Of a stretch of DNA of 35,285 nucleotides, positions 1 to 34,705 are shown one piece after another; the stretch's first letter is position 1; each line of letters opens with the position of its first letter. The notes beneath the pieces were generated by a model, which was not told the origin of the DNA, made no database searches, and was given only the letters and a program-made list of their open reading frames with translations. The position numbers were made by a program, and so were the translations under genes. The DNA is from a virus. The DNA is taken from the IMG/VR virus record IMGVR_UViG_3300042890_004808, positions 1-35,285 of that record; one strand, written 5' to 3'.

Positions 1-97
1 CGCCACCTTGTACAAATACACGCAGTTTAAGTGCAGGATTACCTTCTTCTGCAATAAGGTCTTGTATCCTAGTTGTAGCTGATTCAGTCAGTGTCAT
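1..97 (-). CDS. erpA: ErpA/IscA-type Fe-S cluster carrier, N-terminal part (cut by window edge)
   Basis: Only the first 32 codons are present; the gene runs off the left edge. The visible protein, [19 protein letters not shown] followed by [13 protein letters not shown], matches the start of A-type Fe-S carriers (HesB/IscA/ErpA family), just before the first conserved Cys, which lies outside the window. These proteins pass Fe-S clusters to apo-enzymes in the cytoplasm. The ATG at 97 is preferred because a GAAAG ribosome site lies 6 nt upstream; an ATG at 100 would add one Met. The start overlaps the stop of the superoxide dismutase gene (CTATGATGA), so the two are probably translationally coupled. 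The family call is fairly firm. ErpA versus IscA cannot be decided from this fragment. Confidence 0.8.
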
Positions 98-651
98 CAT
101 AGTCTTTCGTTACAAACATCCCAGTCGATAATCTTCCAAATATTATCCAGGTATTTTTCTTTGTCCCACTGATAATCAGTGGCCCAAACATGCTCCCACC
201 AATCAATCAGCACACAAATGTCTGTGCGAACAGCATGGTTGGGTATAGTTTTAATTGTGCCATTGGTGCTCAAATACACCCATCCAGAACCTTGAATTTT
301 CATTGCTGTTTCTTTAACTGCAATTTTAAAATCTTCATAGGTTTTAAAATTCTCTTCAATTAAGGCCAGCACCGCACCCCGTGGCCGGTTGGCGCCTTTG
401 GGCGGGCGCAATTGCGGAAAGAATTTGTTGTGTAAAAAGCTACCAGCACGATTAAAATCTGCGTTGCCTTCGCCTGCGTTGTAACGCTTTGCATAGCCTT
501 TGGCCAAATGCCCGTAATGGTATTCTAAACTTTCTTTACTCAATACTGGCTCCAGGTCTTTCTCACCGTAAGGCAGCGGTGTAGTTTCCAGCTTGGCAGG
601 CCGTGTACTGGCCTCTACTAGATTTAAATCTTGTCGTATTTCGTAGTGCAT
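97..651 (-). CDS. sodB: Fe/Mn superoxide dismutase
   Basis: A 184-residue protein of the Fe/Mn superoxide dismutase family, which converts superoxide to peroxide and oxygen. Visible motifs in order: [13 protein letters not shown] (26-38), EYHYGHL with first metal ligand H45, FLHNKFFPQ with H74, GSGWVYLS (121-128), and [12 protein letters not shown] with ligands D150 and H154. The tail [17 protein letters not shown] resembles the family C-terminus. Length is slightly below the usual 190-200. I chose the ATG at 651. A GTG at 696 would add 15 residues lying inside the upstream gene and unlike the family. The gene sits between an SGNH hydrolase and erpA. A CATAAATA late-promoter-like motif lies just upstream at 657-664. 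Fe versus Mn preference cannot be read. Confidence 0.85.
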
Positions 652-656
652 ATGGG

Positions 657-664
657 TATTTATG
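657..664 (-). promoter_or_regulatory. T4-late-like promoter motif upstream of SOD
   Basis: The minus strand reads CATAAATA, close to the T4-type late promoter TATAAATA. The expected start point, about 6 nt further on, would fall at the SOD start codon. This may be chance, since the motif overlaps the stop codon of the upstream gene. Confidence 0.25.
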
Positions 665-1370
665 CGCCTAGTGCATTTGCATATCGGTTTTGCCACAGAG
701 CTGCCGCGGCAATGTGTGCATCTTCCAATGGATGCATTCCTCCCTTGGACACAAAAAATCCATTTTTTCTGGACCAGTCTACAAAATTTTGCCCTTCAAA
801 TAATTCTAGTTCTGGATATACTAGTTTTTGCAGTTCGTTGATGTAATCGGGAGTCAAATCCTTGTGTTCACAAGAAATATCAAACATGTCATAATCCATG
901 TAGGTTTGTATGCAATTGATATTTTTTTGTTTCATATATGATTGTGCCGCATATATTATTTGTAAATTTCGTAATTTATTCCATAGTATGCCAGCATTGA
1001 TTCGTGAATGATAAAACTCGACCATTTCTTTAGCCTGAGTGCGGTCTACCAAGTCTTTAAGACGTGCTGGCACACAAGTAGGGCCAAAGGTAATCCAAGT
1101 TTTATGGTCAAAAACATAATAATCCCAACGACTGATCCAAGTCCAGTTTATAACTGCCAAGGTGTCTTCAACTGGATTTTGTGCAAACCAAGAATAAATT
1201 TGCTGTGCAATGTAATCGTTCCCACATCCGGAGTTTGCCCTAGTATGATATTCACAATTTAAATTGTTGGCAACGCGACCCGGCCATCCCAAAGATCCGT
1301 CGTCGTTGTTTTCTTGTTCTGAGCCATAGACAAAACTATCGCCAAATCCTATAATTTTTTTAGTTGTCAT
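660..1370 (-). CDS. SGNH/GDSL-type hydrolase-like protein
   Basis: A 236-residue protein. Near its N-terminus it has IIGFGDSFVYG (about residues 6-16), the GDS(L) nucleophile block of SGNH hydrolases. Near the C-terminus it has GGMHPLEDAHIAAA, matching the block V Asp/His pattern (DxxH or HPxxxxH). A GCGN at about 49-52 could be the block III Asn. No signal peptide is seen, so it probably acts in the cytoplasm or on the virion. Family members are esterases, acyltransferases or O-acetyl esterases of glycans. It resembles the proteins at 2491-3102 and 12743-13504 in size and end blocks. Its start lies 40 nt from a divergent plus-strand ligase gene. Substrate unknown. Confidence 0.6.
   Translation of the reverse strand: MTTKKIIGFGDSFVYGSEQENNDDGSLGWPGRVANNLNCEYHTRANSGCGNDYIAQQIYSWFAQNPVEDTLAVINWTWISRWDYYVFDHKTWITFGPTCVPARLKDLVDRTQAKEMVEFYHSRINAGILWNKLRNLQIIYAAQSYMKQKNINCIQTYMDYDMFDISCEHKDLTPDYINELQKLVYPELELFEGQNFVDWSRKNGFFVSKGGMHPLEDAHIAAAALWQNRYANALGA
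1327..1355 (+). promoter_or_regulatory. Possible sigma-70 promoter for the ligase island
   Basis: TAGACA (1327-1332), a 17-nt spacer and TATAAT (1350-1355) point toward the plus-strand gene at 1410. The element lies inside the start of the divergent SGNH gene. It would leave a leader of about 48 nt with no good ribosome site. It is one mismatch from consensus. Confidence 0.4.
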
Positions 1371-1409
1371 TTTCTTTTACTTGTTTATTTTGAGCCAATA
1401 AGTATTGAC

Positions 1410-2489
1410 ATGAAACGAGCAGTTATTTGTGCAAACAACCCTCAGGATTATATCAATCAATTAGATGATTACAGTATCATGATCATCAATCCTGATGCGG
1501 CTGCATCAAGACAAAAATATTTATTAGACAATGCTGACTATAGTTTATTAATCACCAACCAAGGTGAAAGCTACAGAGACGGTGCGGACTACTGCAACGA
1601 ACGCTTGCTTTGGTATACCAGTGGTACCACCGGAGACAGCAAGTTTTGTAGTTTTACTCAAGATCAAGTGAATACATTGGCTCAGCGAATCTGTTCTGCC
1701 TATGATATCACTGCAAATGATCGGTATGTCAGCATAATGCCTCTGTGGCATGCACACGGACAAGGAATGTATTGGGCTATACAACAGGCCCGGTGCGAAA
1801 TACACTATATGCCTGTAAAAAATATCAAGTCCATGCCTGACTATGATCCAACTTTTATCAGTGCTATTCCTGATTTTTTACGAGTTATTTCTCAAATGGA
1901 TTTTGATCATTTGAGATTTATAAGATCTGCCAGTGCGGCTTTGCCCACGGAATTGTATCAGCATCTGTCAGAAAAATATCAGGTGCCTGTGATAGAAGCA
2001 TTTGGTATGACTGAGTCCTTGAGTCAATGTTTTACCAATCCTTTGCATGGAGAACAACGACCGGGCACTGTGGGTTTGCCCGACGGAATAGAAGCTGATA
2101 TTGTGGACGGACATCTCTACATTCAAGGTTCTACTGTGTTTGCTCCTGGATGGTACGACACTGGCGATTTGGCCGATCGTGATGAGGCTGGATATTATCG
2201 TATATTAGGGCGCAGCAAAGATCAAATCAATGTTCGCGGCATCAAAGTTAATCCAGTGAGCTTGGAATATCAACTGAAATCCAACATTGACAATCTCACA
2301 GACTGTGTGATTTTTGGCACAGATTGTGTCAAGTGTTTGTACACTGGCACCTGTGATTCACAGACCATTAAAGATTTTTTAATTGGCCTAGGACAACATT
2401 GTTGGCCACGAGTGCTAGAACAGATTGACTTGATACCAGTGAGTCCGTCTGGAAAAATTTCTCGAATCTGGTTAAATGAAAGGTATTAG
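1410..2489 (+). CDS. Compact ANL-superfamily acyl/aryl adenylate (CoA) ligase
   Basis: A 359-residue AMP-forming ligase. Core motifs are present in order: YTSGTTGDSK (69-78, ATP loop), IMPLWHAHG (109-117), EAFGMTES (196-203), WYDTGDL (248-254, adenylate binding), GRSKDQINVRG (267-277, hinge) and PSGKISR (346-352) with the catalytic Lys at 349. Members activate a carboxylic acid as acyl-AMP and pass it to CoA, a carrier protein or an amine. The ATP loop lies about 100 residues earlier than in ordinary 500-residue acyl-CoA synthetases, while A3-to-A5 spacing is normal. It therefore looks N-terminally shortened but catalytically complete. It lies on the plus strand, facing away from its left neighbours. 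Its stop is one base from the next gene's start, so they form an operon. Substrate unknown. Confidence 0.8.
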   Translation: MKRAVICANNPQDYINQLDDYSIMIINPDAAASRQKYLLDNADYSLLITNQGESYRDGADYCNERLLWYTSGTTGDSKFCSFTQDQVNTLAQRICSAYDITANDRYVSIMPLWHAHGQGMYWAIQQARCEIHYMPVKNIKSMPDYDPTFISAIPDFLRVISQMDFDHLRFIRSASAALPTELYQHLSEKYQVPVIEAFGMTESLSQCFTNPLHGEQRPGTVGLPDGIEADIVDGHLYIQGSTVFAPGWYDTGDLADRDEAGYYRILGRSKDQINVRGIKVNPVSLEYQLKSNIDNLTDCVIFGTDCVKCLYTGTCDSQTIKDFLIGLGQHCWPRVLEQIDLIPVSPSGKISRIWLNERY

Positions 2490-2490
2490 T

Positions 2491-3102
2491 ATGTCTAGAC
2501 TTGTTGCATTTGGATCCAGTATTATAATGGAAAAAAACTCATTTCCAGAGTTGATAGCAACACATCTGTCTCGTGATTATGTGTCACGAATCAAACCTGT
2601 CAATTCCAATCACAAAATTGCCAGAATGGTGTTATACCAAAGCTACGAATCTGATGATTTTGTGCTGGTGGATTGGACAACAACTATACGACACGAGTTC
2701 AGAACTGAACAAGGATGGGTGGGTACCAGCAGGGCAACATACAAACCCGGTTGCGGATTTGAAGAACACTGGTATCAAGGTCCTGGCCAATGGGAGTATA
2801 CCGGAATATCTTCATCCTTGAAGGAAATTATATTAGCACAGACATTCCTTGTTGCTCGTGGTATACCTTACATGTTTACATTTGACTACGACGATATCAT
2901 TGCCAGTAATTTGTTAGCAGAACCGGATAATTATATCAGTTCATTGAAAATTCTAATTGATTGGAATCGTGTGGTGTTGTTTGATAATCATGGATTTTTA
3001 ACCTGGTGTAAAAAGAATAATTATGAATTCAACGGGTCGCATCCAAAACAATCTTCGCATCGGATAGCAGCCGATTATCTATTAAATAAATTTAAATTTT
3101 AA
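2491..3102 (+). CDS. SGNH-like hydrolase/acyltransferase downstream of the ligase
   Basis: A 203-residue protein. The N-terminus MSRLVAFGSSI resembles an SGNH block I in which GDS is replaced by GSS. The C-terminus NGSHPKQSSHRIAADYLL keeps an HPxxxxHxxxA pattern like block V of the other SGNH-like proteins in this window. I chose the ATG at 2491 because GAAAGG sits 8 nt upstream; an ATG at 2476 would overlap the ligase stop. It is co-transcribed with the ligase and ends one base before the convergent infA gene. A natural guess is that it transfers or removes the acyl group activated by the ligase. That is inference from adjacency, and the altered nucleophile block makes activity uncertain. 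Confidence 0.5.
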   Translation: MSRLVAFGSSIIMEKNSFPELIATHLSRDYVSRIKPVNSNHKIARMVLYQSYESDDFVLVDWTTTIRHEFRTEQGWVGTSRATYKPGCGFEEHWYQGPGQWEYTGISSSLKEIILAQTFLVARGIPYMFTFDYDDIIASNLLAEPDNYISSLKILIDWNRVVLFDNHGFLTWCKKNNYEFNGSHPKQSSHRIAADYLLNKFKF

Positions 3103-3103
3103 A

Positions 3104-3322
3104 TTATCTACGTCTTACTATGCGTCCACGAGTTACATCGTAAGGACTAAACTCCATCTCTACTATATCACCAGCCAATACTTTGATGTTGTTTTGGCGC
3201 ATACGCCCATTCAATGAGGCTAGTACAGTATTTTCAATACCTGTTAGTTTTACTCGGTATGTAGTGTTTCGTAACACTTCTATTACCACACCATCCATCT
3301 TTATAAAATCGTCTTTACTCAA
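3104..3322 (-). CDS. infA: Translation initiation factor IF-1
   Basis: A 72-residue OB-fold protein with the full length of bacterial IF-1. It binds the 30S A site and works with IF-2 and IF-3 at initiation. Diagnostic stretches are MDGVVIEVLRNTTYRVKL (9-26), NGRMRQNNIKVLAGD and the ending SPYDVTRGRIVRRR, which parallel IF-1 of ordinary bacteria. The start is TTG at 3322, because the residues from there align with the family N-terminus (MAKEDxIxMxG type). A later ATG at 3298 would remove them. The gene overlaps the end of the upstream SH3-like gene by 8 nt and is the last gene before a convergent plus-strand operon. A phage copy is unusual. Identification is strong. Confidence 0.92.
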   Translation of the reverse strand: MSKDDFIKMDGVVIEVLRNTTYRVKLTGIENTVLASLNGRMRQNNIKVLAGDIVEMEFSPYDVTRGRIVRRR

Positions 3323-4094: not shown

Positions 4095-4123
4095 ATTATA
4101 ACAAGTTATTAGTTATTGGTCAA
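4095..4123 (-). promoter_or_regulatory. Sigma-70 promoter for the infA operon
   Basis: The minus strand has TTGACC (4123-4118), a 17-nt spacer, and TATAAT (4100-4095) preceded by TGT (extended -10). The -35 sits in the GGTTGACC context shared by most promoters here. It overlaps the stop codon of the P-loop gene upstream. Confidence 0.85.
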
Positions 4124-4692
4124 CCTGTTACTGATTTATACCATATAGTGTGCAACTTTTGGGCAAGTTTTGCATCAATTTGCGTAACAAGTTCTGATTC
4201 TATAAATTTGATTATTTGATCAACTTGTTCTGTAAATATATCTTCAGCATTCAGTGTAAAAAAATCTTTTTCACCAAATAATTTTTCCATATATTGAACA
4301 GAGTATAAACTGGTTTGTTCATGGAACCAATAGTTCTTAAAATTTGGACAAAATTTTAGCAGCCTATCATAAGCTGCAGTATTTTTTTTTGGAAATGTTA
4401 TTATTAAAAATTTACGATTTATAAAAAATTTATCAATTTGTTTTTGTTGTATCCAAAGATATTCTGCTAAATGTCCACATAACACGTTGCTTTGGATCTG
4501 TAACTGTGGCAAATTATCCAACAAAGATTTTTCTTGTAGATTTGATATATCAGCCAGATGTGCAGTTTTTATGCCCGGCCGATATTTACTAAGATCAGTA
4601 TTGCGTGTAAATCTACTAGATAATCCAATTAAATTTGCTAGATGATTGCCGCCAAGTCCTGGTGCAAATATAACAAATAAATTTTCAATCAT
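4120..4692 (-). CDS. P-loop / sulfotransferase-like protein, copy 1
   Basis: A 190-residue protein starting MIENLFVIFAPGLGGNHLANLI. The N-terminal strand plus GLGGNHL loop resembles the phosphosulfate-binding loop of sulfotransferase-like proteins. No clear second cofactor motif is visible. A similar opening (VSFPPGAGGNWLASVL) occurs in the 239-residue protein at 6558-7277, so the two look like divergent paralogues. The start overlaps the stop of the membrane protein upstream by 4 nt, making it third in the lysis-like cluster. True sulfotransferase activity is uncertain. Confidence 0.4.
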   Translation of the reverse strand: MIENLFVIFAPGLGGNHLANLIGLSSRFTRNTDLSKYRPGIKTAHLADISNLQEKSLLDNLPQLQIQSNVLCGHLAEYLWIQQKQIDKFFINRKFLIITFPKKNTAAYDRLLKFCPNFKNYWFHEQTSLYSVQYMEKLFGEKDFFTLNAEDIFTEQVDQIIKFIESELVTQIDAKLAQKLHTIWYKSVTG

Positions 4693-12742: not shown

Positions 12743-13504
12743 CTACTTTATTAAATCGGACCAGTTGATATTTTGTAAAAACCAATCTGCAATTTTCTGA
12801 TGTCCCAATATTGAAGGATGATTATTCCATGTATAATATTTTTTGTATGCATCCGATACTGTTAATTCAGTGTGATAAGGTGGCCTTTTATTATAATTTT
12901 GCCCCCAAGTATCATTGAGTATATCTACTAGAGTATTATTATTAAACTGATGACCCAAGAAATTGTCAGTTTCAAGAATCTTATCAAAACTATTTAAATG
13001 ATCTTCAAAACTATACAATGGATTATCAAATAAATTAAATTTGATTATATTTACTTTGTATTTCTTAGATATTTGATCCAATGCAGATATAATATAAAAT
13101 AAATCAAATATCTCAACAAAACGTAAATTCTGATTTTCTACTAATCCATTGTCATTTATACCTTTATTATTGACTGACAGACTTCTTCTATCTCTATAGG
13201 TGGTGGTAATCCCAAACAATATTGTGTCTTTTTCTGTTAATAATCCATTGTAGATAATTCTCATTAATCTATCCAACTGGTAAAAATTGCTATGTCCTCT
13301 TCCTGCCTTGTTAAGAAATTCGCAATTTAATTTTTTTGCAATAATGGCCGCAAAACTAACATTGTTTTTAAGATATTCTTCTCTTTCAATCGGCGGCATG
13401 TTGTGTGTTGGTGGAAATTTTGGATTGTAGTTTATATCAGCAGGGCCAAAATCATCTTGGTCGCCCACAACAAAACTATCTCCAAACGCTATTATTCGTG
13501 ACAT
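12743..13504 (-). CDS. SGNH/GDSL-type hydrolase-like protein
   Basis: A 253-residue protein. MSRIIAFGDSFVVG carries the GDS nucleophile block, and NKAGRGHSN (about 66-74) fits the block III Gly-x-Asn region. The C-terminal NHPSILGHQKIADWF carries the block V type His pair. No signal peptide is seen. It resembles the SGNH gene at 660-1370 (same opening and closing blocks) but has a longer Asn/Lys-rich middle and higher AT content. It lies just after a GT9-like gene, so it may modify a glycan. AGGATAAT precedes the ATG at 13504. Confidence 0.6.
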   Translation of the reverse strand: MSRIIAFGDSFVVGDQDDFGPADINYNPKFPPTHNMPPIEREEYLKNNVSFAAIIAKKLNCEFLNKAGRGHSNFYQLDRLMRIIYNGLLTEKDTILFGITTTYRDRRSLSVNNKGINDNGLVENQNLRFVEIFDLFYIISALDQISKKYKVNIIKFNLFDNPLYSFEDHLNSFDKILETDNFLGHQFNNNTLVDILNDTWGQNYNKRPPYHTELTVSDAYKKYYTWNNHPSILGHQKIADWFLQNINWSDLIK

Positions 13505-23256: not shown

Positions 23257-26200
23257 ATGACACAATATACCATTTACGCCACTGCTGCCAATCCTGTTGG
23301 AAATATCATAACCGTCAATTCCGTGGACAATATGTTTTCGGGTCTGCCCATTGTGTTTTCGGGCAACACGTTTGGTGGCATCACGGCCAATGCCACCTAT
23401 TACATTGGCACAGTGATACCAGGATATCCCACAAGCACAATAACCCTATCCAGTTTGCCAGGTGGTGCAACATACGCAGTTTCCAACGCTTCGGGCAACA
23501 TGACTGCGGTTTTTAGTTCGGGTGGTCAACAGATCATCAACACTGTACCTCCAGGTGAATCATTGATCACGGCTTTTACGGCAGTTAATGTAAACTTTGA
23601 CCAAATATTTGCTGCAGGTCCAGTGAACAGCAATATCCAAATTGCCAACAACACTGTTCTAACCACCAATACCAATGGCAATATCAACTTGGTGCCCAAT
23701 GGAGTTGGCACAGTAGTAGTCAATTCATCTGTGCTTCCAGACACAGCAAACATTAGAAATTTAGGTAGTGCAACACGTCGTTGGGCCACAGTGTATTCTC
23801 AGTATCTAAACATCAGTGCCGGCACTTCGGTAAATGGTGACCTGACTGTGGCTGGAAATTTAACAGTCCAAGGCAACATTATACAAGTTGGCAACATTGT
23901 TACCGAAACATTGACCATTCAATTGGCCAATGCAGCCAGCACAGCCAATGCGGCCAATGGTTCTGGCATTACTGTAGGTGCCAATGATAACATTGCTACA
24001 TTGTTATATAATTCTACCGGCAATGTGTGGACCACAAACATTGGGTTGAGTGCAGTTGGCAACATCACTGCACCATATTTCTTTGGCAACGGCAGTCAAT
24101 TGACTGGGCTCGCCGCAACTTACGGCAATGCCAACGTGGTCACATTGTTGGCTGGGTTTGGTGCCAACACAGTGAGCACCACTGGCAATATCACAGGTGG
24201 ATATTTCTTTGGCAATGTCAGTCAAGCAAATGGATTCCCAGCAACGTATGGCAATAGCAATGCTGTGGCCTACGGTGAATCAGGATGGGCCGGCAATATC
24301 ATTCCAAGTGGCAATGCTATTTACAGTTTGGGCAATGCCACAAATCAGTGGAACGATTTGTATGTGTCGAACGCTACCATTTTTATGAACAATGTGCCTG
24401 TCAGTCTAAGCCCAGGCAATGTGCTTACAGTCAACGGCAATGCTGTATTACAAAACGATAGTAACACCAGCATATCAACTACAGGCAACATCACTGCTGG
24501 TAATATAAGCATTACCGGTGGAAGTTTGACCTGGTCCAATGCCAGCATAGTGCAGACCAGTGCCTCAGACGTAAGCATAACCGGTGATGGCCAAGTCACG
24601 GTGCGCAGTCTGGGTGGCACTTATCAATGGACCTTTGACTCAAATGGCAACTTGACAGCACCGGCCAACGTCAGTGCCACTGGCAACGTCACAGGTGCTT
24701 ACATCAAAGGTAACGGCAGTGAATTGACCAGTTTACCAGCTCCTGTGGTCACACAAGATATCACCTCCAATGGTGCCATGAGTATAATGACTTATGATGG
24801 CAACATAAAATATGTAAACTATGCCACAGTTGAACCCTCCAGTGGTAACATTGCAGGCGGCAACATTACTACTACTGGATTGGTCAGTGCTACAGGCAAC
24901 ATCACTGGCAACTATTTCTTTGGCAACGGCAGCCAACTGACCGGTATCAATGTGTCCACGTCAAGCATTTCAAACGGCAACAGCAACGTGGCCATAGCCA
25001 CGGCCAACGGCAATGTCACAGTGGCGGTAGCAGGTGCAGGTACCTGGACTTTTGACACAACAGGTAATGTAACTATTCCCGGCAATATTGTTGGTACAGC
25101 TACCATAGACATCGACAACCGTGCCACAGGCAACGGTGCAGACATACAACTCTACTCAGCCGATGACATCTTGTTACAGGCTCGTGATCGCAGTGCAGGA
25201 TCTACTTCCGAAGGTGGTGACATCAATATTTTTGCTGGTGATTCGGCCGAAGACAGCGACAGCAGTGGCGGCGATGTTGTGATTGAAGGCGGCCGCGGTG
25301 GAGCATCCAACGTTGATTTTGGTGGATCAGGCGGAACTATTACCATACAGGGCGGCCAGGGCGGTGCGGCTTCCACTGGCGTTGACAACTATCCTGCCCA
25401 AGACGGTGGTCTACTCACACTCCGTGCCGGCGATGCTGGCGGCAACATGGGCAATATTGATAGAGGTGCTGCAGGTGGTAATGTAATCATCGAAGCTGGC
25501 GACAGCACTGGTAATGGCGTTAATGGTGGCACTATCTATCTAACTTCGGGTGCCGCTGATGCAAGCGCATTGGCAGGTGATGTTGTGATTCAAGCCGGTG
25601 GTACCTGGACTTTTGACGGGGCTGGTAACCTCAACTTGCCAATGGGTGGTGTTGTTTATGAAACCAACATTCCGGACGGCGGACTTAGTGGTAGTGCCAT
25701 TGCTTTAAAACCAACAGGTGGAACCAATGCTGATCAAGAGTTGTTGATTTATCCCACAGTCAATGATGCCAATCACTTGCACTTGACCACAGGCAACTTA
25801 TACAACACAGAGTTATTCTTAGGCGACGACAACTTGTATGTCAAGTTGGCCAATACCGGTAATGTCGTGGTCAACAGCAACGACGATACAGGCAACACAG
25901 CACAGTGGACCTTTGGTGCCAATGGTAACTTGACCTTGCCGGGTAATATTATCGCAATAAACTATGCCAACGGTAATCGAGTAACCGGCGGCGTCACATT
26001 CAATGGTGAGGCAGTGATCGGCACCGGCACCAGCAACACACAGAGTGGACTGTATCTTGCACCGGATCCTGTGTCCCTAACAAATGATTTATACCTGCGA
26101 GTGCGGGGCAATATCATTGACGAACCCACACACATACATTTTGACACCGGCAACAATCAATACTTCAATCAGTTCATCGGCGATGACAACAAGTATATAC

Positions 26201-27147
26201 AGTTGGCCAATACCGGCAACATCGTAATCAACAGCAATGATGCGGCTGGTAACTCAGCACAGTGGATATTTAATACCGCTGGCACATTAACATTGCCCGG
26301 TGGCAGTCGAATTAGACCCCTAGGCGCCAATTTGGATCTATTTGCTGGTGGTGGTTATGTAAACTTGATAACTGCTGATGAAAGCTCTTATATGGGCGTT
26401 AGTGGCAATGGTGGTTTTATTACCACTGTTAGTGGAACTTGGCAATTTGATACTACTGGCAATTTGAGTGCTCCTGGCAACATCAGTGCTGTTGGCAACA
26501 TTGTCAGTGGAAACTTAACTGTTGGATCAGGTACTATAACTGGCGGAAATGTCAATGGTGCAAATTTCAATGGCAATGTAGCATTTGGCACTGGTACAGT
26601 AGGAGGTTCTGGCAACATAACCGGCGGTAATTTAATTACCACAGGCTCAGGCGGTGCCATCACCATGAGTGGCGGCAACATCACTGGTGCCGGTAATATT
26701 TCAGCTGGTAATATCAGTGCCACAGGCAATGTTACAGCCGCTAATTTCTTTGGTAATGGTAATACCTTATCTAATGTTGCCACAACATTCGAAAGCACTT
26801 GGACTGTGCCCGTAGGCAACAGCACACAGAATTTCACTGTGCCGATCAACAACACGTATCAACTATGGGTCCTTGGTAACATACCCAACGGTATCATAGT
26901 CTACAATGCCACGGTCAGTGTGTCCAACACCAACGTGCCAGTGATAGGTCAACAGTTTGCCTGGAACTATGAAGGCGGTGGCAACATATTGATGTTTACC
27001 AGCATCCCTGCTCAGATTATAGGCACAGCCGGTGCTATCGCCAATGCTCAACCTGCGGTGGCCAACACCAATGTGTTCTCTTTTGGTATCAACAACACCA
27101 GCGGCAACGCTGTAACTGTAAATTACGGTTACACCAAGATAAGTTAA
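23257..27147 (+). CDS. Giant repetitive tail fibre protein
   Basis: A 1,296-residue protein, very rich in Gly, Asn, Thr and Val. Repeats include 'LGSATRRWxxxY/LGNATNQWxDLY' (about 169 and 359), 'YFFGNGSQLTGL'-type units (about 272, 316, 551 and 1163) and GNITAGN/GNIS runs, typical of triple-stranded beta fibre shafts of T4-like phages. Residues about 650-780 form a Gly-rich domain (GGRGG, GGSGG, GGQGG). Two related blocks (about 847-895 and 965-1018: 'GDDN.Y..LANTGN..INSND..GN.AQW') look like an internal duplication. The last 120 residues form a non-repetitive knob, ending YGYTKIS. It should bind the host surface. A weak AAAGG precedes the ATG at 23257. No signal peptide. Confidence 0.85.
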   Translation: MTQYTIYATAANPVGNIITVNSVDNMFSGLPIVFSGNTFGGITANATYYIGTVIPGYPTSTITLSSLPGGATYAVSNASGNMTAVFSSGGQQIINTVPPGESLITAFTAVNVNFDQIFAAGPVNSNIQIANNTVLTTNTNGNINLVPNGVGTVVVNSSVLPDTANIRNLGSATRRWATVYSQYLNISAGTSVNGDLTVAGNLTVQGNIIQVGNIVTETLTIQLANAASTANAANGSGITVGANDNIATLLYNSTGNVWTTNIGLSAVGNITAPYFFGNGSQLTGLAATYGNANVVTLLAGFGANTVSTTGNITGGYFFGNVSQANGFPATYGNSNAVAYGESGWAGNIIPSGNAIYSLGNATNQWNDLYVSNATIFMNNVPVSLSPGNVLTVNGNAVLQNDSNTSISTTGNITAGNISITGGSLTWSNASIVQTSASDVSITGDGQVTVRSLGGTYQWTFDSNGNLTAPANVSATGNVTGAYIKGNGSELTSLPAPVVTQDITSNGAMSIMTYDGNIKYVNYATVEPSSGNIAGGNITTTGLVSATGNITGNYFFGNGSQLTGINVSTSSISNGNSNVAIATANGNVTVAVAGAGTWTFDTTGNVTIPGNIVGTATIDIDNRATGNGADIQLYSADDILLQARDRSAGSTSEGGDINIFAGDSAEDSDSSGGDVVIEGGRGGASNVDFGGSGGTITIQGGQGGAASTGVDNYPAQDGGLLTLRAGDAGGNMGNIDRGAAGGNVIIEAGDSTGNGVNGGTIYLTSGAADASALAGDVVIQAGGTWTFDGAGNLNLPMGGVVYETNIPDGGLSGSAIALKPTGGTNADQELLIYPTVNDANHLHLTTGNLYNTELFLGDDNLYVKLANTGNVVVNSNDDTGNTAQWTFGANGNLTLPGNIIAINYANGNRVTGGVTFNGEAVIGTGTSNTQSGLYLAPDPVSLTNDLYLRVRGNIIDEPTHIHFDTGNNQYFNQFIGDDNKYIQLANTGNIVINSNDAAGNSAQWIFNTAGTLTLPGGSRIRPLGANLDLFAGGGYVNLITADESSYMGVSGNGGFITTVSGTWQFDTTGNLSAPGNISAVGNIVSGNLTVGSGTITGGNVNGANFNGNVAFGTGTVGGSGNITGGNLITTGSGGAITMSGGNITGAGNISAGNISATGNVTAANFFGNGNTLSNVATTFESTWTVPVGNSTQNFTVPINNTYQLWVLGNIPNGIIVYNATVSVSNTNVPVIGQQFAWNYEGGGNILMFTSIPAQIIGTAGAIANAQPAVANTNVFSFGINNTSGNAVTVNYGYTKIS
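25201..25600 (+). repeat. Glycine-rich repeat domain in the fibre
   Basis: Gly-rich motifs separated by hydrophobic strands (DVVIEGG, TITIQGG, LLTLRAG, NVIIEAG, TIYLTSG, DVVIQAG). The spacing of about 17-23 residues suggests a repeated strand-plus-Gly-loop fold like the poly-glycine tips of some fibre adhesins. Confidence 0.6.
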
Positions 27148-27150
27148 ACA

Positions 27151-27858
27151 ATGGCCATAACTATAGGACCTGGAATCACTGTTGGAGCTGGCGTGTCCGT
27201 TACACAGACTTCGTCAATAGTCACTGATGGATTAGTATTACATTACGATTTTAGCGATCCTGCCAGTTACCCAGGAACAGGCACTGCCGTAACTGACTTG
27301 TCCACTGCCGCCAATAACGGAACTGTGGTCAACGACTACAGTGCTATATCCTATGTGGCTGATGGCCAGACCAGTTATTTCAACTGGTCTACCAATGCAG
27401 GCGGTAGTGGATCAAACTCATTTGGTGGCAGTATCCACACTGCATCAACCAATGTGTATCAAGATTTTACCATGGTATTCCAACCTGATTTCACTGTGAG
27501 TGGACTAGCAGGCCTATTTGGTATCCCAGGCGACAAGAGCATGAGATTTTACAACAACGGCTGGGAAGCACCCAATCCCGGCAATGACGACGATTGGGCT
27601 GCTGGAACCTTTGGTGCAACCACTTTCTACGTAAATGGAATAGCAAGCGATCAGGCAGTGGCCGGATGGAATGTCATGGGAGGCACAACAACCAACCCTG
27701 CTTTCTCTGGACCTACACAATTATATGTTGGTACCAGTGGCTATGAGAATCGCAACATGCAAGGTAAGATTGCTGTGGTGTTGATGTATAACAGAACATT
27801 AACAGCAGAAGAACAACTGCAAAACTTCAACTACTTCAAGTCACGCTTCGGTCTTTAA
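27151..27858 (+). CDS. LamG/concanavalin A-like adhesin or fibre-tip protein
   Basis: A 235-residue protein. DGLVLHYDFSDPASYPGTGT (about 26-45), then a jelly-roll strand series (YQDFTMVFQPDF, LAGLFGIPGD, PTQLYVGTSGYENRNMQGKI) and 'AVVLMYNRTLTAEEQLQNFN' at the end match the LamG/Laminin-like fold seen in many phage fibre proteins. The N-terminal 25 residues are Gly/Thr-rich (ITIGPGITVGAGVSVTQTSS) and may dock onto a trimer. It starts 3 nt after the fibre gene, so both come from the same message. It probably binds a host glycan. Its 3' end overlaps the convergent SWIM gene by 18 nt. Confidence 0.75.
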   Translation: MAITIGPGITVGAGVSVTQTSSIVTDGLVLHYDFSDPASYPGTGTAVTDLSTAANNGTVVNDYSAISYVADGQTSYFNWSTNAGGSGSNSFGGSIHTASTNVYQDFTMVFQPDFTVSGLAGLFGIPGDKSMRFYNNGWEAPNPGNDDDWAAGTFGATTFYVNGIASDQAVAGWNVMGGTTTNPAFSGPTQLYVGTSGYENRNMQGKIAVVLMYNRTLTAEEQLQNFNYFKSRFGL

Positions 27859-28470: not shown

Positions 28471-28499
28471 ATTATAGCAGTTTGGGAGTATTTGGTCAA
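28471..28499 (-). promoter_or_regulatory. Sigma-70 promoter predicting a leaderless mRNA
   Basis: TTGACC (28499-28494), a 17-nt spacer AAATACTCCCAAACTGC, and TATAAT (28476-28471). Only CATAGT separates the -10 from ATG. It overlaps the stop of the glycosyltransferase gene. Confidence 0.9.
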
Positions 28500-29569
28500 C
28501 CAGATAAAAGTCCTTGATTTTGAAGGGTTTTTAGGGCAGAATTTACGCTATTTGCCCAACTAAATTCAGTTCTGATAACCCTGCTGTTTTTAAGAGCATT
28601 GGGTGCTAAAAAATCCCAGTGATTTTTAGCAAACCTCAGGCATTCTGCCAAATGGTCAACATCAGGTATGGCCCATAGTCCCCAATTGTTGCTGGGTTCG
28701 GGATAAAATCTGTGGTATTCGGGACACTCAATTGTGCCCAATTTGTAGTCCACAGGCACTGTGCCACTTGTTATGTGTTGCAGGTATTCTCTATGCCCAC
28801 TGTAAAATGTTGACACAATGGGCATACCTGATGCGGCAGCTTCAATGATGGGCAGGCCCCAACCTTCGCCTTTGGATGGCAACACAAAAACGTCACAGTT
28901 GCGATAAAAGTCCACTAGATTATCAGCTTCGCCCCAGAACACTTGCACATTGGTTAGCCCTTGATCTTGTATGTATTTTTCTAAATCCTGTTGAGTCAGC
29001 CCGTATCCTACAAAATAGTTTGTTTTGATCACCAGCTCTACCATTGGATTATTGCCAAATGCTTGTGCAAATGCTTGGATAACTTCGTTGCAACTTTTTC
29101 TTTGTTCGTATTTGCCCACAAACAAAAATCTAAACGGACGGCCCAAGTTGCTGGGTCTAGCATACGGATGGAATTGATCTGTGTCCACGCCTTCAGGAAC
29201 CACTGCCACACGGGCTGGATCAATTCCGTGAGTAATCAATGTTTGTTGTCCCCAACCACTGGGAACCCACACACTGTCAGCATGTGGCAATACCTTCATC
29301 AACAAACTGGGTATGCGAGTGCTTTCAAACACAGTCCATTGAACGTTGTGTCCGCAAAAATGTTCATGTATGTTCATGGGCACAAAGCTGATGTTGATGT
29401 CTCCAGGTTGGCTTTGTTGCACTGCTGAATTTAATTGTGCCGAATCTTGAAAGTTGATTTCTTCCACAAGATTACCAATGCCGTTGACTCTTTTGATAGC
29501 GTCTGCAAAGCAGGTGTAGTGCCGACCAATACCTAGATTGTTGCGTAGTCCAATTAGTCTAATTTTCAT
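28496..29569 (-). CDS. Glycosyltransferase family 4-like protein
   Basis: A 357-residue protein. Order: N-terminal Rossmann-like region (MKIRLIGLRNNLGIGRHYTC), a central 'VAVVPEGVDTDQFHPYARPS' loop, then 'FLFVGKYEQRKSCNEVIQAF', and PSKGEGWGLPIIEAAASGMP with the E-x7-E pattern of GT4 transferases. It should bind a nucleotide sugar and move it to a lipid, protein or glycan. I chose the ATG at 29569, which overlaps the previous stop (TAATG); an ATG further upstream would lie in that gene. It is third after the radical SAM gene. Confidence 0.8.
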   Translation of the reverse strand: MKIRLIGLRNNLGIGRHYTCFADAIKRVNGIGNLVEEINFQDSAQLNSAVQQSQPGDINISFVPMNIHEHFCGHNVQWTVFESTRIPSLLMKVLPHADSVWVPSGWGQQTLITHGIDPARVAVVPEGVDTDQFHPYARPSNLGRPFRFLFVGKYEQRKSCNEVIQAFAQAFGNNPMVELVIKTNYFVGYGLTQQDLEKYIQDQGLTNVQVFWGEADNLVDFYRNCDVFVLPSKGEGWGLPIIEAAASGMPIVSTFYSGHREYLQHITSGTVPVDYKLGTIECPEYHRFYPEPSNNWGLWAIPDVDHLAECLRFAKNHWDFLAPNALKNSRVIRTEFSWANSVNSALKTLQNQGLLSG

Positions 29570-30003
29570 TATTCGATCAACAGTCCTTGACCTTGCACGG
29601 TGTGTAGCCATTGATAAAATGGCCTAGGAATATGCAATTCCCAAATGCCATTGAATCCCAAATAATTAGTAGGAGTATCTATATCATGATCATTGACATA
29701 AGTAATCAAATTATTGTATTTAGGAATCAGTGCAACACCATCAACTGTCAAGGATTCAATAATTATTGCAGTTTCTTTTTGATCATTGTATATTTTATCA
29801 ATGAGTTCTACCTGGATGCACATGGGATCAAGCAGACCACAATCCCAGTTTATACAAACTGCACTATCAAGTGTTTGATTTAACAAAATTTTATTGTTGT
29901 ATTTGACCAAGGCAGTGGGTACGCCGTTGTCAACAATAGCTGACAGTCGTAATTGCACATTGAGTTGAATGTCAGTACCCAGCAGATCTGAAAATTGATT
30001 CAT
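29569..30003 (-). CDS. Beta-rich conserved phage protein between radical SAM and glycosyltransferase genes
   Basis: A 144-residue protein: MNQFSDLLGTDIQLNVQLRL, a series of strands, then LIPKYNNLITYVNDHDIDTP, ending NGIWELHIPRPFYQWLHTVQ plus GQGLLIE. The ending 'W.....I P . P F Y Q W L H . V . G Q G . L' is one I associate with unnamed T4-like phage proteins found near radical SAM or glycan genes. It overlaps the radical SAM gene by 32 nt and the glycosyltransferase gene by 1 nt. It may be a glycan-binding or acceptor protein; unproven. Confidence 0.5.
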   Translation of the reverse strand: MNQFSDLLGTDIQLNVQLRLSAIVDNGVPTALVKYNNKILLNQTLDSAVCINWDCGLLDPMCIQVELIDKIYNDQKETAIIIESLTVDGVALIPKYNNLITYVNDHDIDTPTNYLGFNGIWELHIPRPFYQWLHTVQGQGLLIE

Positions 30004-31273
30004 ATTGGGGCACATAGTCTAACACACAATTGCTACGGCTGGCTTCTAATTTTTTTAAATACTGCACAAGTTGCGGCAATCGATGGTGTTCATCTTCGCC
30101 AAACTCCAACAAATTACAATAACTAGCTGCATCCTGTACCAACTGTTGTTCCACAATGCCAGGATCGCGTGTGTTTATTATTTGCGCAGTTGATTCTACA
30201 GTGTGTGCATCAATCCATTGTTTTATACCTTGACAAATTTGTAGTCTTTGTTGTTTTGGTAACACATTGATTCTTAAAAATTCTGGGTCTTGAAGAAAAT
30301 TACAGCTTTCCACTGACAATTTATTGTCCCATGCAAAATCATAAATTGTTGTCAAGTCATGTATTGTCAAACAAGTTGGAGTTACTCTGAGTTGCATTAA
30401 CCAACCATGATTTTTAGACAATGATATCCATTGATTTAAAATTTTATTGACCTCGGGCAAATCACTGGGCCAACGCACGTAGTCATTGACTGGCGTCAAG
30501 GTATCAATGCTTACTCCCAAATTGACCTGTTTGAATTGTGTTAACAAATCAATAACATCACTGTTCCATACAGTGAGATTTGTAGTGAATCCTATTGTGA
30601 CATTCTTGGCCAGGCCTGCGGCAATGATCCCTTTTAGAATAATTTCAAATCCAGGCGTGATCAGTGTTTCACCTCCAAGAAAGTGCAGGTAATGCAATTC
30701 ATTGCAGACGCTTAAATTGTCAATGAACTTTTTTATTAATTTTTCATCGTTGCACCACGAGCCCGGAGGCATTTGATCTATCAATCCAATGCGTTTAAAT
30801 TCTGTGGCCAATCTACTGCTAAATTCTGGATTACAATACACACACGCCGAATTGCAAAAATTACCAAGATCAATCTGCCAGTCACTGGGCAATCTATTGG
30901 TGTGTCCGGCGTGATCATTGCTGTATTTAAATTCGTGAAATACCGGACTGCTGATCATGGTTTTTTCAAATTTGTCAACAGTGACACCAACTTTCAATAA
31001 CTGGCGCTGTCTACCACTGGGTTTTTTGTGTTGTTCCATGTGATGACATTCAGAACATGGAGCATGGTCTTGACCCGAAAGTAATTTTGTCCGTATGGGC
31101 GCCATGGTATTCTGAAAGTAGTCAATTGGTGATTGATTTCTTATGTTGTGATCAGCGTCAATCCTGCTGGTTTGAGATGTTTTGGATTGCCATCTGCAAT
31201 ACTCGTAACTGCCAGAATTGTTGATTCTCATGTGCAACCATGGGCTTGAGCAAAAAGTTTTTTCAAATGACAT
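29972..31273 (-). CDS. Radical SAM enzyme with N-terminal SPASM/twitch-like Cys region
   Basis: A 433-residue protein. NFCNSACVYC (138-147) is the radical SAM CxxxCxxC cluster motif, followed by GGETLITPGF (the Gly-rich SAM loop) and 'TTNLTVW', 'GVSIDTLTP'. The N-terminus has extra Cys at 8, 26, 73 and 76 (FCSSPWLHMR, YEYCRW, CSECHH), as in proteins carrying a further Fe-S cluster like SPASM or twitch. Members cut or join C-C, C-N or thioether bonds in peptides or small molecules. A TATAAATA late-like motif lies 10 nt before the ATG. It overlaps the beta-rich gene, then a glycosyltransferase. Product unknown. Confidence 0.8.
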   Translation of the reverse strand: MSFEKTFCSSPWLHMRINNSGSYEYCRWQSKTSQTSRIDADHNIRNQSPIDYFQNTMAPIRTKLLSGQDHAPCSECHHMEQHKKPSGRQRQLLKVGVTVDKFEKTMISSPVFHEFKYSNDHAGHTNRLPSDWQIDLGNFCNSACVYCNPEFSSRLATEFKRIGLIDQMPPGSWCNDEKLIKKFIDNLSVCNELHYLHFLGGETLITPGFEIILKGIIAAGLAKNVTIGFTTNLTVWNSDVIDLLTQFKQVNLGVSIDTLTPVNDYVRWPSDLPEVNKILNQWISLSKNHGWLMQLRVTPTCLTIHDLTTIYDFAWDNKLSVESCNFLQDPEFLRINVLPKQQRLQICQGIKQWIDAHTVESTAQIINTRDPGIVEQQLVQDAASYCNLLEFGEDEHHRLPQLVQYLKKLEASRSNCVLDYVPQYESIFRSAGY

Positions 31274-31348: not shown

Positions 31349-32908
31349 ATGCGTGACCTACTTGATTTGCTAGACAATTTAGAAGAAAGTCGTGGACTAA
31401 GTGCCCGGCAACCTGGCGAAATTTACAACCGTGGCCCTGATGCCGACGATCAAATTGCATTTCAGGGACTGACTTTTTACCCAGAAGTTGGATCATACAC
31501 AGATGTCCAACAAATGTTGGCGGCCTTTGCTCAGGTAGAAGATCAAGTTGGGCGTGAGATTGAACAGATTAATCGTCCCAATGCAAGAACACGAGCATTT
31601 GGCATAGCAGCATTTAATACCGCGGTGGGTCCTAGATACTTGGCAAAATTTGCCGAGGAAATCAAACCGGTCAGAACACAAAATACATTTTTCCAAACCA
31701 AAGATATACCTGGTGGGTTTAGTCAATCGGATGCTCGTGGCAGCAAAGAAAAAGTCGGTTACAAACCCAGTGATGTGTTGACTGAATTCAAAAGTCAAAC
31801 TCCATCCAGTATACTGGCACAGATTGCTGCCAAGTTTGGTGAAAGCTCAGACGAGTATCGCGCCGCAGTTATTATTACTTCCACTGACAGGTTTCCTGTG
31901 AGTGTGCCTGCGGGCAAGATGGACTTTGCTGGTTTCCGTGATTACTTTTGCGAAATGCTACAACCTATCGTGCTGATCCGTGGTATTCCAGTCAAAGGCA
32001 ATGCTGCCAAGGCCGCGGAAATCTTCATGGGTCAAGATGGATTTGCAGGATCTGTTGTGAGTTTCAATCAAAATGTCAGCGGTGGGTTATACGATAGTTT
32101 GTTGATCAGTCCTGAAGGCAAACAGATCAAACTCAGTTCAAAAGGCGCCAAGGGTGCGATGGCATCTAGCATAAACTTATTGACCAGTGTGCGTGAACTA
32201 GAAGCTGCTGGTATGACACAGTTCCGACAGCAATATGCCGATGTGATTGAAATTCTAGAAACCATTGACCGAGGTGATCATAATTCAGGCCCATTGACCC
32301 TGGCAGTAGAACAAGAATTAATCACTGCTGCAGAAGTACAACAAGTAATGGGTTTAAAGCAATATGCAGGTGTCAAAGACTTTGATATTGACAAAATCAA
32401 TATCAGTAAAAATCTAAAGAAGATTTATCACGATCGCACTGCAGAAGATCCCAGCAAGATAGTACCATTGAATCACATGGTAGCAAGTATTGCGTACAAG
32501 GTTGTTAATCATATCAACATGACCACAGACTTCAGTGATGCTGCCGCTGACATTCTCAATAACTCGGCGTTTGTGCAGATGTACACTGAAGCTAAAAATG
32601 CCAAAACAGAATTCATAATCCAAGGGTTTAATACAGTATGGCCCAGCAAGTTGTTTACCGAAGTCACACTGGAGGCACAAAAGAGTTATTCCAGCACATC
32701 TAGTTCAAGTGGCAAGTTGGTTTTTAACATCAACAAACAACCCAAGGTTGAACCCAATGTAGAGCAGACTGCCACTGCTGGTGATGCAGACAAGGGCAAA
32801 GCTGGGGAGTTGGTTGATTATATTCCGCCTCGTAGCAATGTCAAGGCCTATCAAGAACCAGAGAAATTTGGTAACGAAAAAACTCTAGGGCGTAAGCGTC
32901 AGAAGTAA
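31349..32908 (+). CDS. Large conserved phage protein of unknown function
   Basis: A 519-residue protein. MRDLLDLLDNLEESRGLSAR is helical. A middle segment reads PEGKQIKLSSKGAKGAMASS (about 257-276), with a 'LSSKGxxGA' motif seen in large T4-like proteins and some nuclease-like proteins. The C-terminus is a low-complexity linker (YSSTSSSSGKLV), then a charged tail (GRKRQK). I recognise the general pattern from unnamed large proteins of marine T4-like phages. GGAAAAATACA precedes the ATG. No clear plus-strand promoter; TATAAT at 31328-31333 lacks a -35. It ends on a palindrome shared with the ClpP gene. Confidence 0.5.
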   Translation: MRDLLDLLDNLEESRGLSARQPGEIYNRGPDADDQIAFQGLTFYPEVGSYTDVQQMLAAFAQVEDQVGREIEQINRPNARTRAFGIAAFNTAVGPRYLAKFAEEIKPVRTQNTFFQTKDIPGGFSQSDARGSKEKVGYKPSDVLTEFKSQTPSSILAQIAAKFGESSDEYRAAVIITSTDRFPVSVPAGKMDFAGFRDYFCEMLQPIVLIRGIPVKGNAAKAAEIFMGQDGFAGSVVSFNQNVSGGLYDSLLISPEGKQIKLSSKGAKGAMASSINLLTSVRELEAAGMTQFRQQYADVIEILETIDRGDHNSGPLTLAVEQELITAAEVQQVMGLKQYAGVKDFDIDKINISKNLKKIYHDRTAEDPSKIVPLNHMVASIAYKVVNHINMTTDFSDAAADILNNSAFVQMYTEAKNAKTEFIIQGFNTVWPSKLFTEVTLEAQKSYSSTSSSSGKLVFNINKQPKVEPNVEQTATAGDADKGKAGELVDYIPPRSNVKAYQEPEKFGNEKTLGRKRQK

Positions 32909-33965: not shown

Positions 33966-33981
33966 TAGTGAGCGATCACTA
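33966..33981. other. Hairpin at the end of the desaturase gene
   Basis: TAGTGA, GCGA, TCACTA form a 6-bp stem that includes the desaturase stop codon. A T-run follows on the plus strand only, so it is not a clear terminator for the desaturase. Confidence 0.3.
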
Positions 33982-34683
33982 ATTTTTTAAAGTCAATAAC
34001 CTAGAAAATTTAAAAATTTGTATCCACATCCAGCCTGCATCAAATTCAAACCAACGACGGCTCAGTCGAGGGTTAGCAGGATCCAAATGATGGTTATTAT
34101 GCAGGCATTCGCCACCAACAACAATGTCCCAAGGAACAATGTTTCTACTGTGATCTTTGGTTTCACCATTTCGATACCCCCACCAGTGTCCTAACCCATT
34201 GATTACACCTGCCGCCCAGAATGGGATCCATATCATTTGGATAATCCATATTAACACGCCCCAATAACCAAACAGCAATAGATCTATCAGTAACATGAGC
34301 AAGATACCCAGGCGGCTGTGCTTGGTGTATACGTTTTGTTCCAGCCAATCGTTGGGTGTGCCTGCGCCATATTGTTGCACCATCTCAGAGTCTTTGCTGG
34401 CCGAATGATACAGTTCAGCGCCGCGAAATAAAATTCTAAGAATTCCGTACACATGTGGGCTGTGTGGATCGCCAGATTCTTCTGTGAATCTGTGATGTTT
34501 ACGATGTATTGCTACCCACTGTTTGGTAACCATGCCTGTGGTGAGCCATAGCCAGGCTCGCATGAAGTGTTCTAGCACAGGGTGAAAAAGTATGCCGCGA
34601 TGTGCTTGCCCGCGGTGTAGATACAAAGTAACACACACTATGGTGATGTGTGTCATCACCAAGGTGGCAATAAGTTCATTCAT
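33979..34683 (-). CDS. Compact membrane fatty acid desaturase (delta-9 type)
   Basis: A 234-residue di-iron desaturase. The three His boxes are present: HRGQAH (23-28), HRKHH (60-64) and HNNHH (195-199), with 'DPHSP' after box 2 as in delta-9 acyl-lipid or acyl-CoA desaturases. Hydrophobic stretches near 3-22, 38-54, 126-140 and 142-163 span the membrane. It is shorter than usual family members (about 270-400) because it begins just before box 1. It introduces a double bond into acyl chains using oxygen and an electron donor. It is the last gene of a chain of micro-ORFs from 35161. I chose the ATG at 34683. Confidence 0.82.
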   Translation of the reverse strand: MNELIATLVMTHITIVCVTLYLHRGQAHRGILFHPVLEHFMRAWLWLTTGMVTKQWVAIHRKHHRFTEESGDPHSPHVYGILRILFRGAELYHSASKDSEMVQQYGAGTPNDWLEQNVYTKHSRLGILLMLLIDLLLFGYWGVLIWIIQMIWIPFWAAGVINGLGHWWGYRNGETKDHSRNIVPWDIVVGGECLHNNHHLDPANPRLSRRWFEFDAGWMWIQIFKFSRLLTLKN

Positions 34684-34705
34684 CAATTACTTATCAATTT
34701 TTGGA

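Follow-up and report, generated by a model that had tools for sequence, protein, structure and literature searches.

In the virus record IMGVR_UViG_3300042890_004808 (positions 1 to 35,285; this whole stretch of 35,285 bases is referred to as the window), the gene for a short adenylate-forming ligase of the ANL superfamily is directly followed by the gene for an SGNH-fold protein (Table 1). The locus raises the question whether a ligase of this size is still an enzyme and, if so, where a phage might send the acyl group that it activates.

Table 1. Features of the ligase locus in the window.
Feature	Position	Strand	Evidence
Fe/Mn superoxide dismutase (SOD), cassette flank	97..696	-	PF02777 4e-19; same gene cluster in L025, L032
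Divergent GDS-type SGNH protein, 236 aa	660..1370	-	SGNH profile 9.7e-58, synteny
Divergent intergenic region, 39 bases, between GDS-SGNH gene and ligase	1371..1409	.	Coordinates
Short ANL adenylate-forming ligase, 359 aa	1410..2489	+	ATG start; PF00501 E 5.6e-26
SGNH-fold protein, 203 aa, GSS box	2491..3102	+	AF2 model, fold match to TesA
Translation initiation factor IF-1, 72 aa, other flank	3104..3322	-	PF01176 1.9e-19; same gene cluster in L025

Arrangement of the gene pair in the window

A sequence-only reading had described the two genes as separated by a single base, the partner as carrying GSS instead of GDS, a GDS-type SGNH gene as lying divergently next to the pair (660-1370, minus strand), and the island as oriented against its neighbours. 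Each of these statements was borne out. The ligase stop codon ends at position 2489 and the SGNH ATG is located at 2491, a start which was preferred to the mechanical ORF start at 2476 because the relatives within its clade begin at the residue encoded from 2491. The nearest genes on either side of the pair are encoded on the minus strand, and plus-strand genes are found farther away (23257-27858, 31349-32908). In addition to the profile match given in Table 1, the product of the divergent gene yields a weak PF13472 match (E 0.04) under the cut-off, and a GDS-type SGNH gene resides at the equivalent place in L025 and L032, two other viral sequences in which the complete block of divergent GDS-type gene, ligase and GSS-type SGNH gene recurs.

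The window also contains other metabolic and stress genes, including those for SOD and ClpP. A phage-encoded IF-1 directly follows the SGNH gene (3104-3322, minus), a fatty acid desaturase (PF00487, 2.3e-14) is encoded at 33979-34686 (minus), and at 28496-31273 (minus) a radical SAM protein, a 148-residue protein without assigned function and a glycosyltransferase (PF00534) form a row. The protein encoded at 4120-4692 (minus) has a P-loop-like stretch, GGNHLAN, which by eye is similar to GGNHIAN in ORFs of L218 and L219. The window's phage also exists in a longer copy, G001, in which the gene for an iron-sulphur biosynthesis protein (L218:604-930, PF01521) adjoins that for SOD. A reading as a defence system was dropped, as PADLOC models gave no match for the seven proteins searched.

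A family of short ligases on viral contigs

The ligase contains a PF00501 domain with the stretches TSGTTGDSK (P-loop, residues 70-78), HAHG (114-117), RSASA (172-176), FGMTE (198-202), DTGD (250-253), K279 and GK (348-349), among which we take the P-loop, the A5, A7 and A8 motifs and the C-terminal catalytic lysine of the ANL superfamily to be represented. For comparison, the ligases of 80 loci were reduced to 50 aligned rows, the window's protein counted in, by removing six that are cut by contig ends, three that do not align from residue 1 and ungapped near-copies of more than 95% identity. All 50 of these non-redundant full-length proteins start with Met and comprise 358-365 residues, and T70-K78, E202, D253, R268, K279 and K349 are invariant among them. 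Thus, the short form is a trait of the family and not a sign of decay, and the ligase has a complete set of catalytic motifs, as had been claimed. Departures occur outside the 50 rows, in L205 (TSGTVGDSK) and in the second ligase of L204, which has a serine at the position of H114. The latter locus (L204:6001-9532) combines two ligases of the family with genes for DegT and SGNH proteins, which might mean that two acids are activated.

Both the ligase and the SGNH gene look to be under purifying selection: dN/dS ranges from 0.09 to 0.17 among five pairs of ligases and from 0.06 to 0.23 among four pairs of SGNH genes, with one further pair of either kind at saturated dS and several of the dS values above 2 and, hence, close to saturation.

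A scan of viral contigs revealed 82 stretches that encode relatives of the ligase, of which 80 were kept (50-100% identical); a profile-based scan raised the number of stretches to 116, and the 80 listed from it are all at least 55% identical. A more divergent seed, L078, led to six loci, every one on contigs already known. In BFVD, a 359-residue protein of an uncultured Caudovirales phage is 62% identical to the ligase and is named only as an Acs-type synthetase. Among annotated phage records, 42 match; among the 40 listed, identity does not exceed 26.7% wherever half of the protein or more is covered, which rules out close relatives in this set, and partial matches reach 34.4%. Judged by their gene names, several of the top-matching records (Acinetobacter phage MD-2021a) look like fragments of bacterial chromosomes. 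The statement that such ligases are rare in phages is therefore valid for the annotated records and does not extend to viral contigs. No named NCBIfam model applies among the matches listed, all of which are far under their cut-offs (the best with 121 bits versus 650). Similarly, a close cellular parent is not supported, as the three best cellular matches, from Bacillota MAGs (L093-L095), are just 25-28% identical.

Structural modeling of the ligase using AlphaFold (AF2) resulted in a mean pLDDT of 91.3, with the minimum at residues 72-75 of the P-loop. The model aligns to MatB (4fut) with 350 of its 359 residues at 3.0 Å, and from residue 1 to 359 it follows solved chains up to about residue 510 (Z 31-32.6), strongly suggesting the two-domain ANL fold including the C-terminal lid, for which Pfam gave no domain above the cut-off. 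Compared with the cellular L093 protein (500 residues), the ligase is 128 residues short in total, made up of 59 at the N-terminus, 26 ahead of the P-loop and a number of short loops. Accordingly, the N-terminal shortening that had been pointed out is real, but it does not amount to one missing subdomain, since internal loops are lost as well and the core is kept. The stretch from the P-loop to the A5 motif is retained; in ANL enzymes, this stretch forms the lining of the acyl pocket.

With regard to the acid, the best PDB profile matches are oxalyl-CoA synthetases (E 7e-40 to 8e-35), followed by MenE (1e-26) and MatB (8e-25), and oxalyl-CoA synthetases are also the top matches in Foldseek at 22-24% identity. 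These enzymes (AtAAE3, 5ie0-5ie3; Lathyrus, 6qjz; yeast Pcs60, 8aff) have the stretches PLxHxHG, LRF(I/V)RSxSAxL and NPL...G.VG.P.G in common with the phage ligase. In the AtAAE3 chain, the aligned counterparts of H114 and S175 are positions 214 and 289, which we take to have a role in oxalate binding. They are, however, about 510 residues long, and the phage ligase, with 359, is without their N-terminus and loops; as the architecture of about 500 residues is absent throughout the family, we do not file the ligase as an oxalyl-CoA synthetase. Feruloyl-CoA synthetase, MenE, Pcs60, MatB and AAE3 all yield Z 31.0-32.6 to the model, so that the acid is not readable from the fold. MatB, MenE and feruloyl-CoA synthetase thus have the same fold, but also a fuller N-terminus, and MatB and MenE have lower profile scores. 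By analogy to oxalyl- and malonyl-CoA synthetases, the acid might be small and perhaps dicarboxylic.

The SGNH protein and the exchangeable neighbours of the ligase

The 203-residue SGNH protein has the box G8-S9-S10, with S10 as the candidate nucleophile and H184 as the candidate histidine. Its sequence profile match is merely 8e-4; its AF2 model (pLDDT 88.4), however, displays the alpha/beta/alpha fold of SGNH enzymes, with TesA and other GDSL enzymes as best fold matches (E. coli TesA 1ivn, Z 13.8, 3.1 Å over 155 residues; Foldseek 1e-5 to 4rw0). The phage record collection returned no match to the protein. S10 and H184, i.e. the block I serine and the block V histidine, are identical in all seven members of its clade. 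In contrast, a GxND block is absent from the window's protein, as are the block II Gly, the block III Asn and the block V Asp; in the SGNH alignment (A5), the clade has S39-N40 where the NGxS clade mostly has Gly-Asn, and the Asp position is Asn in the window's protein and N, Q or D in the clade. Among 23 SGNH proteins the nucleophile position is occupied by Ser in 18 and by Cys in five, and the histidine is absent in exactly those five (L028, L037, L040, L043 and L062), a coincidence without exception. An SGNH fold without the full hydrolase signature leaves room for a role in acyl transfer or binding.

SGNH-like genes are present in 33 of the 40 records behind the ligase loci, a set with several near-copies and many fragments. 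A single phage may have several: the window has a further one at 12743-13504 (minus), and the 75-kb G001 has them in seven places. An earlier count found an SGNH gene immediately downstream of the ligase in 18 of 49 loci, in 15 of them on the same strand, versus 8 of 481 other genes (binomial value 2e-10 at an assumed background of 6%).

From the gene clusters around the ligase, four partner families were identified, namely SGNH, FabK-like, a minimal DegT aminotransferase (mini-DegT) and a NeuD/VioB-like N-acyltransferase. Of 63 non-redundant viral loci (counted without the second ligase of L204 and with L034 and L036 restored), 56 encode at least one of them no more than three genes from the ligase. 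The next downstream gene belongs to one of them in 51 of the 60 loci with at least 700 bases downstream or counted as such, with SGNH in 19, FabK-like in 13, NeuD in 10, DegT in 9 and another gene in the remaining 9. Partner profiles match 93 of the 354 genes up to three positions from the ligase and 4 of the 297 that lie five or more positions away. This enrichment is partly circular and, like the earlier SGNH count, overstated because the profiles were seeded from ligase neighbours and the loci are related. Thus, the SGNH gene does accompany the ligase elsewhere, and neither of the two outcomes that would have refuted the sequence-only reading, a decayed copy of a full-length ligase or an SGNH partner never seen with it in other phages, was obtained. 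The SGNH gene is, however, one of four interchangeable neighbours rather than the specific partner that this reading had made of it.

The nearest solved relatives of the NeuD-like partners are LpxD, PglD and VioB, those of the mini-DegT partners are DegT sugar aminotransferases including perosamine synthetases, and that of the FabK-like partners is FabK; the NCBIfam scores of all three are under the curated cut-offs. The DegT-type protein at L054:8010-8669 and 20 relatives have only about 200 residues, with the core residues conserved and no C-terminal part. Of 27 FabK-like loci, 20 are on contigs with the ligase, and for seven (L208, L211-L216) none was found in the stretch examined, so that this link is not obligatory. 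The DegT and FabK-like profiles matched nothing in the window, nor in the portions of G001 and G003 that were scanned, and NeuD is likewise absent from the window. A carrier protein as partner was dismissed, as PF00550 occurs in just one of the 40 records.

SGNH and NeuD genes are never found together within three genes of the ligase, neither in the 63 loci (singly in 23 and 24; Fisher 4e-7) nor in 36 ligase clusters at 75% identity (singly in 16 and 14; 1e-5). Either of them may be joined by DegT within this distance (SGNH in 8 and NeuD in 13 of the 63 loci). The exclusion is local only, because G001 has a NeuD-like gene about 51 kb from its ligase pair. On a ligase tree of 62 rows (the 50 rows and 12 ligases from 11 later loci, labelled by hand, with the FabK label of L058 taken from a partial gene), the partner labels are scattered over several parts, and 3, 2 and 2 gains or losses are needed for the same-strand SGNH lineages SG1, SG2 and SG3 and 3 for FabK-like, indicating that partners have changed more than once.

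The ligase itself resides in at least five gene contexts, which fits the separate acquisition that had been proposed for the island: between the SOD and IF-1 genes (the window, L025 and partly L032); close to the gene for a family B DNA polymerase and to a small regulator-like gene (many of the FabK, DegT and NeuD versions); between SbcD-like and SbcC-like nuclease genes (L011, L012, L033, L035); near GTP cyclohydrolase and sugar epimerase genes (L010 and others); and in a same-strand gene run (L037, L040, L042-L046) with no Pfam match for the two that were scanned. In G001, a run without the ligase consists of an unassigned 359-residue gene, a small regulator-like gene, a 93-residue ORF, the NeuD-like gene and the start of a polymerase gene (polymerase and regulator named by likeness to L208), and the ligase pair is located about 51 kb away. 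This arrangement fits a mobile ligase, whichever the direction of movement.

Possible roles and comparison with known systems

Based on these findings, we propose, with about even confidence for and against, that the locus is a mobile phage cassette which activates a small acid and places the acyl group on an amino-sugar or another glycan, with the SGNH protein as an interchangeable acyl-handling enzyme. The ligase would adenylate a small carboxylic acid with ATP and pass the acyl group to CoA or another thiol, from which a second, swappable enzyme would take it over, putatively the SGNH-fold protein in the window's version and a NeuD/PglD/VioB-like N-acyltransferase in others. In some versions, reduction of the acyl chain could fall to the FabK-like flavoprotein, and the amino-sugar acceptor could come from the minimal DegT aminotransferase. 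What would result is a sugar or amino-sugar bearing the acyl group, for use in the glycan coat of virions or infected cells. Gene structure, conserved motifs, predicted folds, signs of purifying selection, recurrence, partner exchange and the local exclusion of SGNH and NeuD are shown by the data; catalysis, the acid, CoA as its carrier, the sugar acceptor and transfer instead of removal by the SGNH protein are inferred. Glycan, lipid and DNA had all been named as conceivable targets; glycan is the best supported of the three, because the ligase also recurs with mini-DegT and NeuD/VioB-like enzymes. Apart from the partial circularity of the enrichment and the local nature of the exclusion, several findings weigh against the proposal: the partner scores under the NCBIfam cut-offs, the lack of DegT and FabK-like matches in the window, the seven FabK-like loci without a ligase, the scarcity of carrier proteins and absence of AT3 genes in the 40 records, the inability of acetyl-CoA to serve the SGNH domain of OatA directly (PMC9558356), the missing GxND block, the five SGNH proteins that have lost Ser and His, and the ligases with altered motifs. 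More tentatively, it might be speculated that the cassette is a minimal acyl-sugar pathway in which the trimmed ligase feeds either a hexapeptide enzyme of the NeuD type or a hydrolase-turned-transferase of the SGNH fold, presumed to be cytosolic, and that phages alter the surface of the infected cell or virion by exchanging acid, enzyme or sugar.

The alternative that survives best, although we find it doubtful, is that the SGNH protein is a hydrolase, either an acyl-CoA thioesterase such as TesA or a deacylase by which acyl groups from the ligase are taken off again or proof-read. The fold match to TesA, the conserved S10 and H184 and the abundance of SGNH-like genes in these phages are consistent with such a role, and phage GDSL lipases appear under cell entry or exit in a listing within PMC7468147. 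A thioesterase that shares an operon with a ligase would, however, give rise to a futile cycle, the protein has no GxND block and its clade varies at the Asp position, and the local exclusion of SGNH and NeuD suits a step shared by the two. We consider it unlikely that the ligase is a metabolic salvage gene, e.g. for the use or detoxification of an oxalate-like acid via its CoA ester, with incidental neighbours. The oxalyl-CoA synthetases as nearest solved relatives by profile and the metabolic and stress genes of the window would be in line with salvage, as would the long-chain acyl-CoA synthetases of three viral units from digesters, read as aiding fatty acid degradation in PMC10401857; incidental neighbours are hard to reconcile with the finding that in 51 of 60 loci, and across several gene contexts, the next gene comes from one of four families linked to acyl groups or sugars. 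Transfer of the acyl group to nucleic acid or protein, e.g. to a hypermodified base, appears very improbable. In L010, a few genes separate the ligase from that for GTP cyclohydrolase I, which acts early in deazapurine and pterin routes, and members of the cyclohydrolase cluster are directly upstream in L014, L024, L027 and L028, but the cluster occurs in only 15 of 80 loci and the recurrent partners match sugar enzymes. Finally, that the ligase is a decayed fragment of a full-length enzyme beside an unrelated gene can be counted as refuted, as the 128 residues fewer than in L093 are outweighed by uniform length in 50 of 50 proteins, invariant motifs, dN/dS of about 0.1 and a model pLDDT of 91.

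Sugar-modifying genes of phages are known as such, and T4-like marine phages carry clusters of lipopolysaccharide genes in which sugar enzymes are encoded next to replication proteins. With its 359 residues the ligase is a very small natural ANL enzyme, and the family further includes a DegT enzyme of about 200 residues and an SGNH candidate transferase, all of them open to direct assay in vitro; it also offers a starting point for asking why SGNH-like genes occur in many environmental phages. Among the papers listed in our literature searches, none showed a phage ligase with an SGNH or sugar-acylating partner module. Viral acyl-CoA synthetases as such are already in print: long-chain enzymes on viral sequences from anaerobic digesters (PMC10401857) resemble the phage ligase, as far as their description goes, in being acyl-CoA ligase genes of viruses, but they are read as serving fatty acid degradation, and the passages on them mention no partner module.

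A further parallel is found in the AT3 and AT3-SGNH O-acyltransferase systems (OafB, OatA) and PatA/PatB, which likewise combine an activated acyl donor with an SGNH-fold protein. According to PMC9558356, the last step of transfer by fused AT3-SGNH proteins is presumed to lie with the SGNH domain, but acetyl-CoA is unable to act as direct donor for this domain in OatA. In L093-L095, the three best cellular relatives, an AT3 acyltransferase gene directly follows the ligase (PF01757 in the two scanned), three cases that are hardly independent, as their AT3 proteins are 86-88% alike. Unlike in these systems, AT3 (PF01757) or a fused AT3-SGNH protein occurs in none of the 40 ligase-bearing phage records, which rules out AT3 as a partner there and makes the cellular arrangement a parallel and not a case of membership.

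Also comparable is the N-acylation of amino-sugars by NeuD, PglD or VioB in conjunction with a DegT aminotransferase, and both enzyme types recur beside phage ligases. In contrast to this system, neither is encoded beside the window's ligase, the phage DegT has only about 200 residues, and the phage loci add an acid ligase and sometimes a FabK-like protein. A phage that encodes the activation of the acid as well would choose the chemical group itself instead of depending on the acyl donors of its host.
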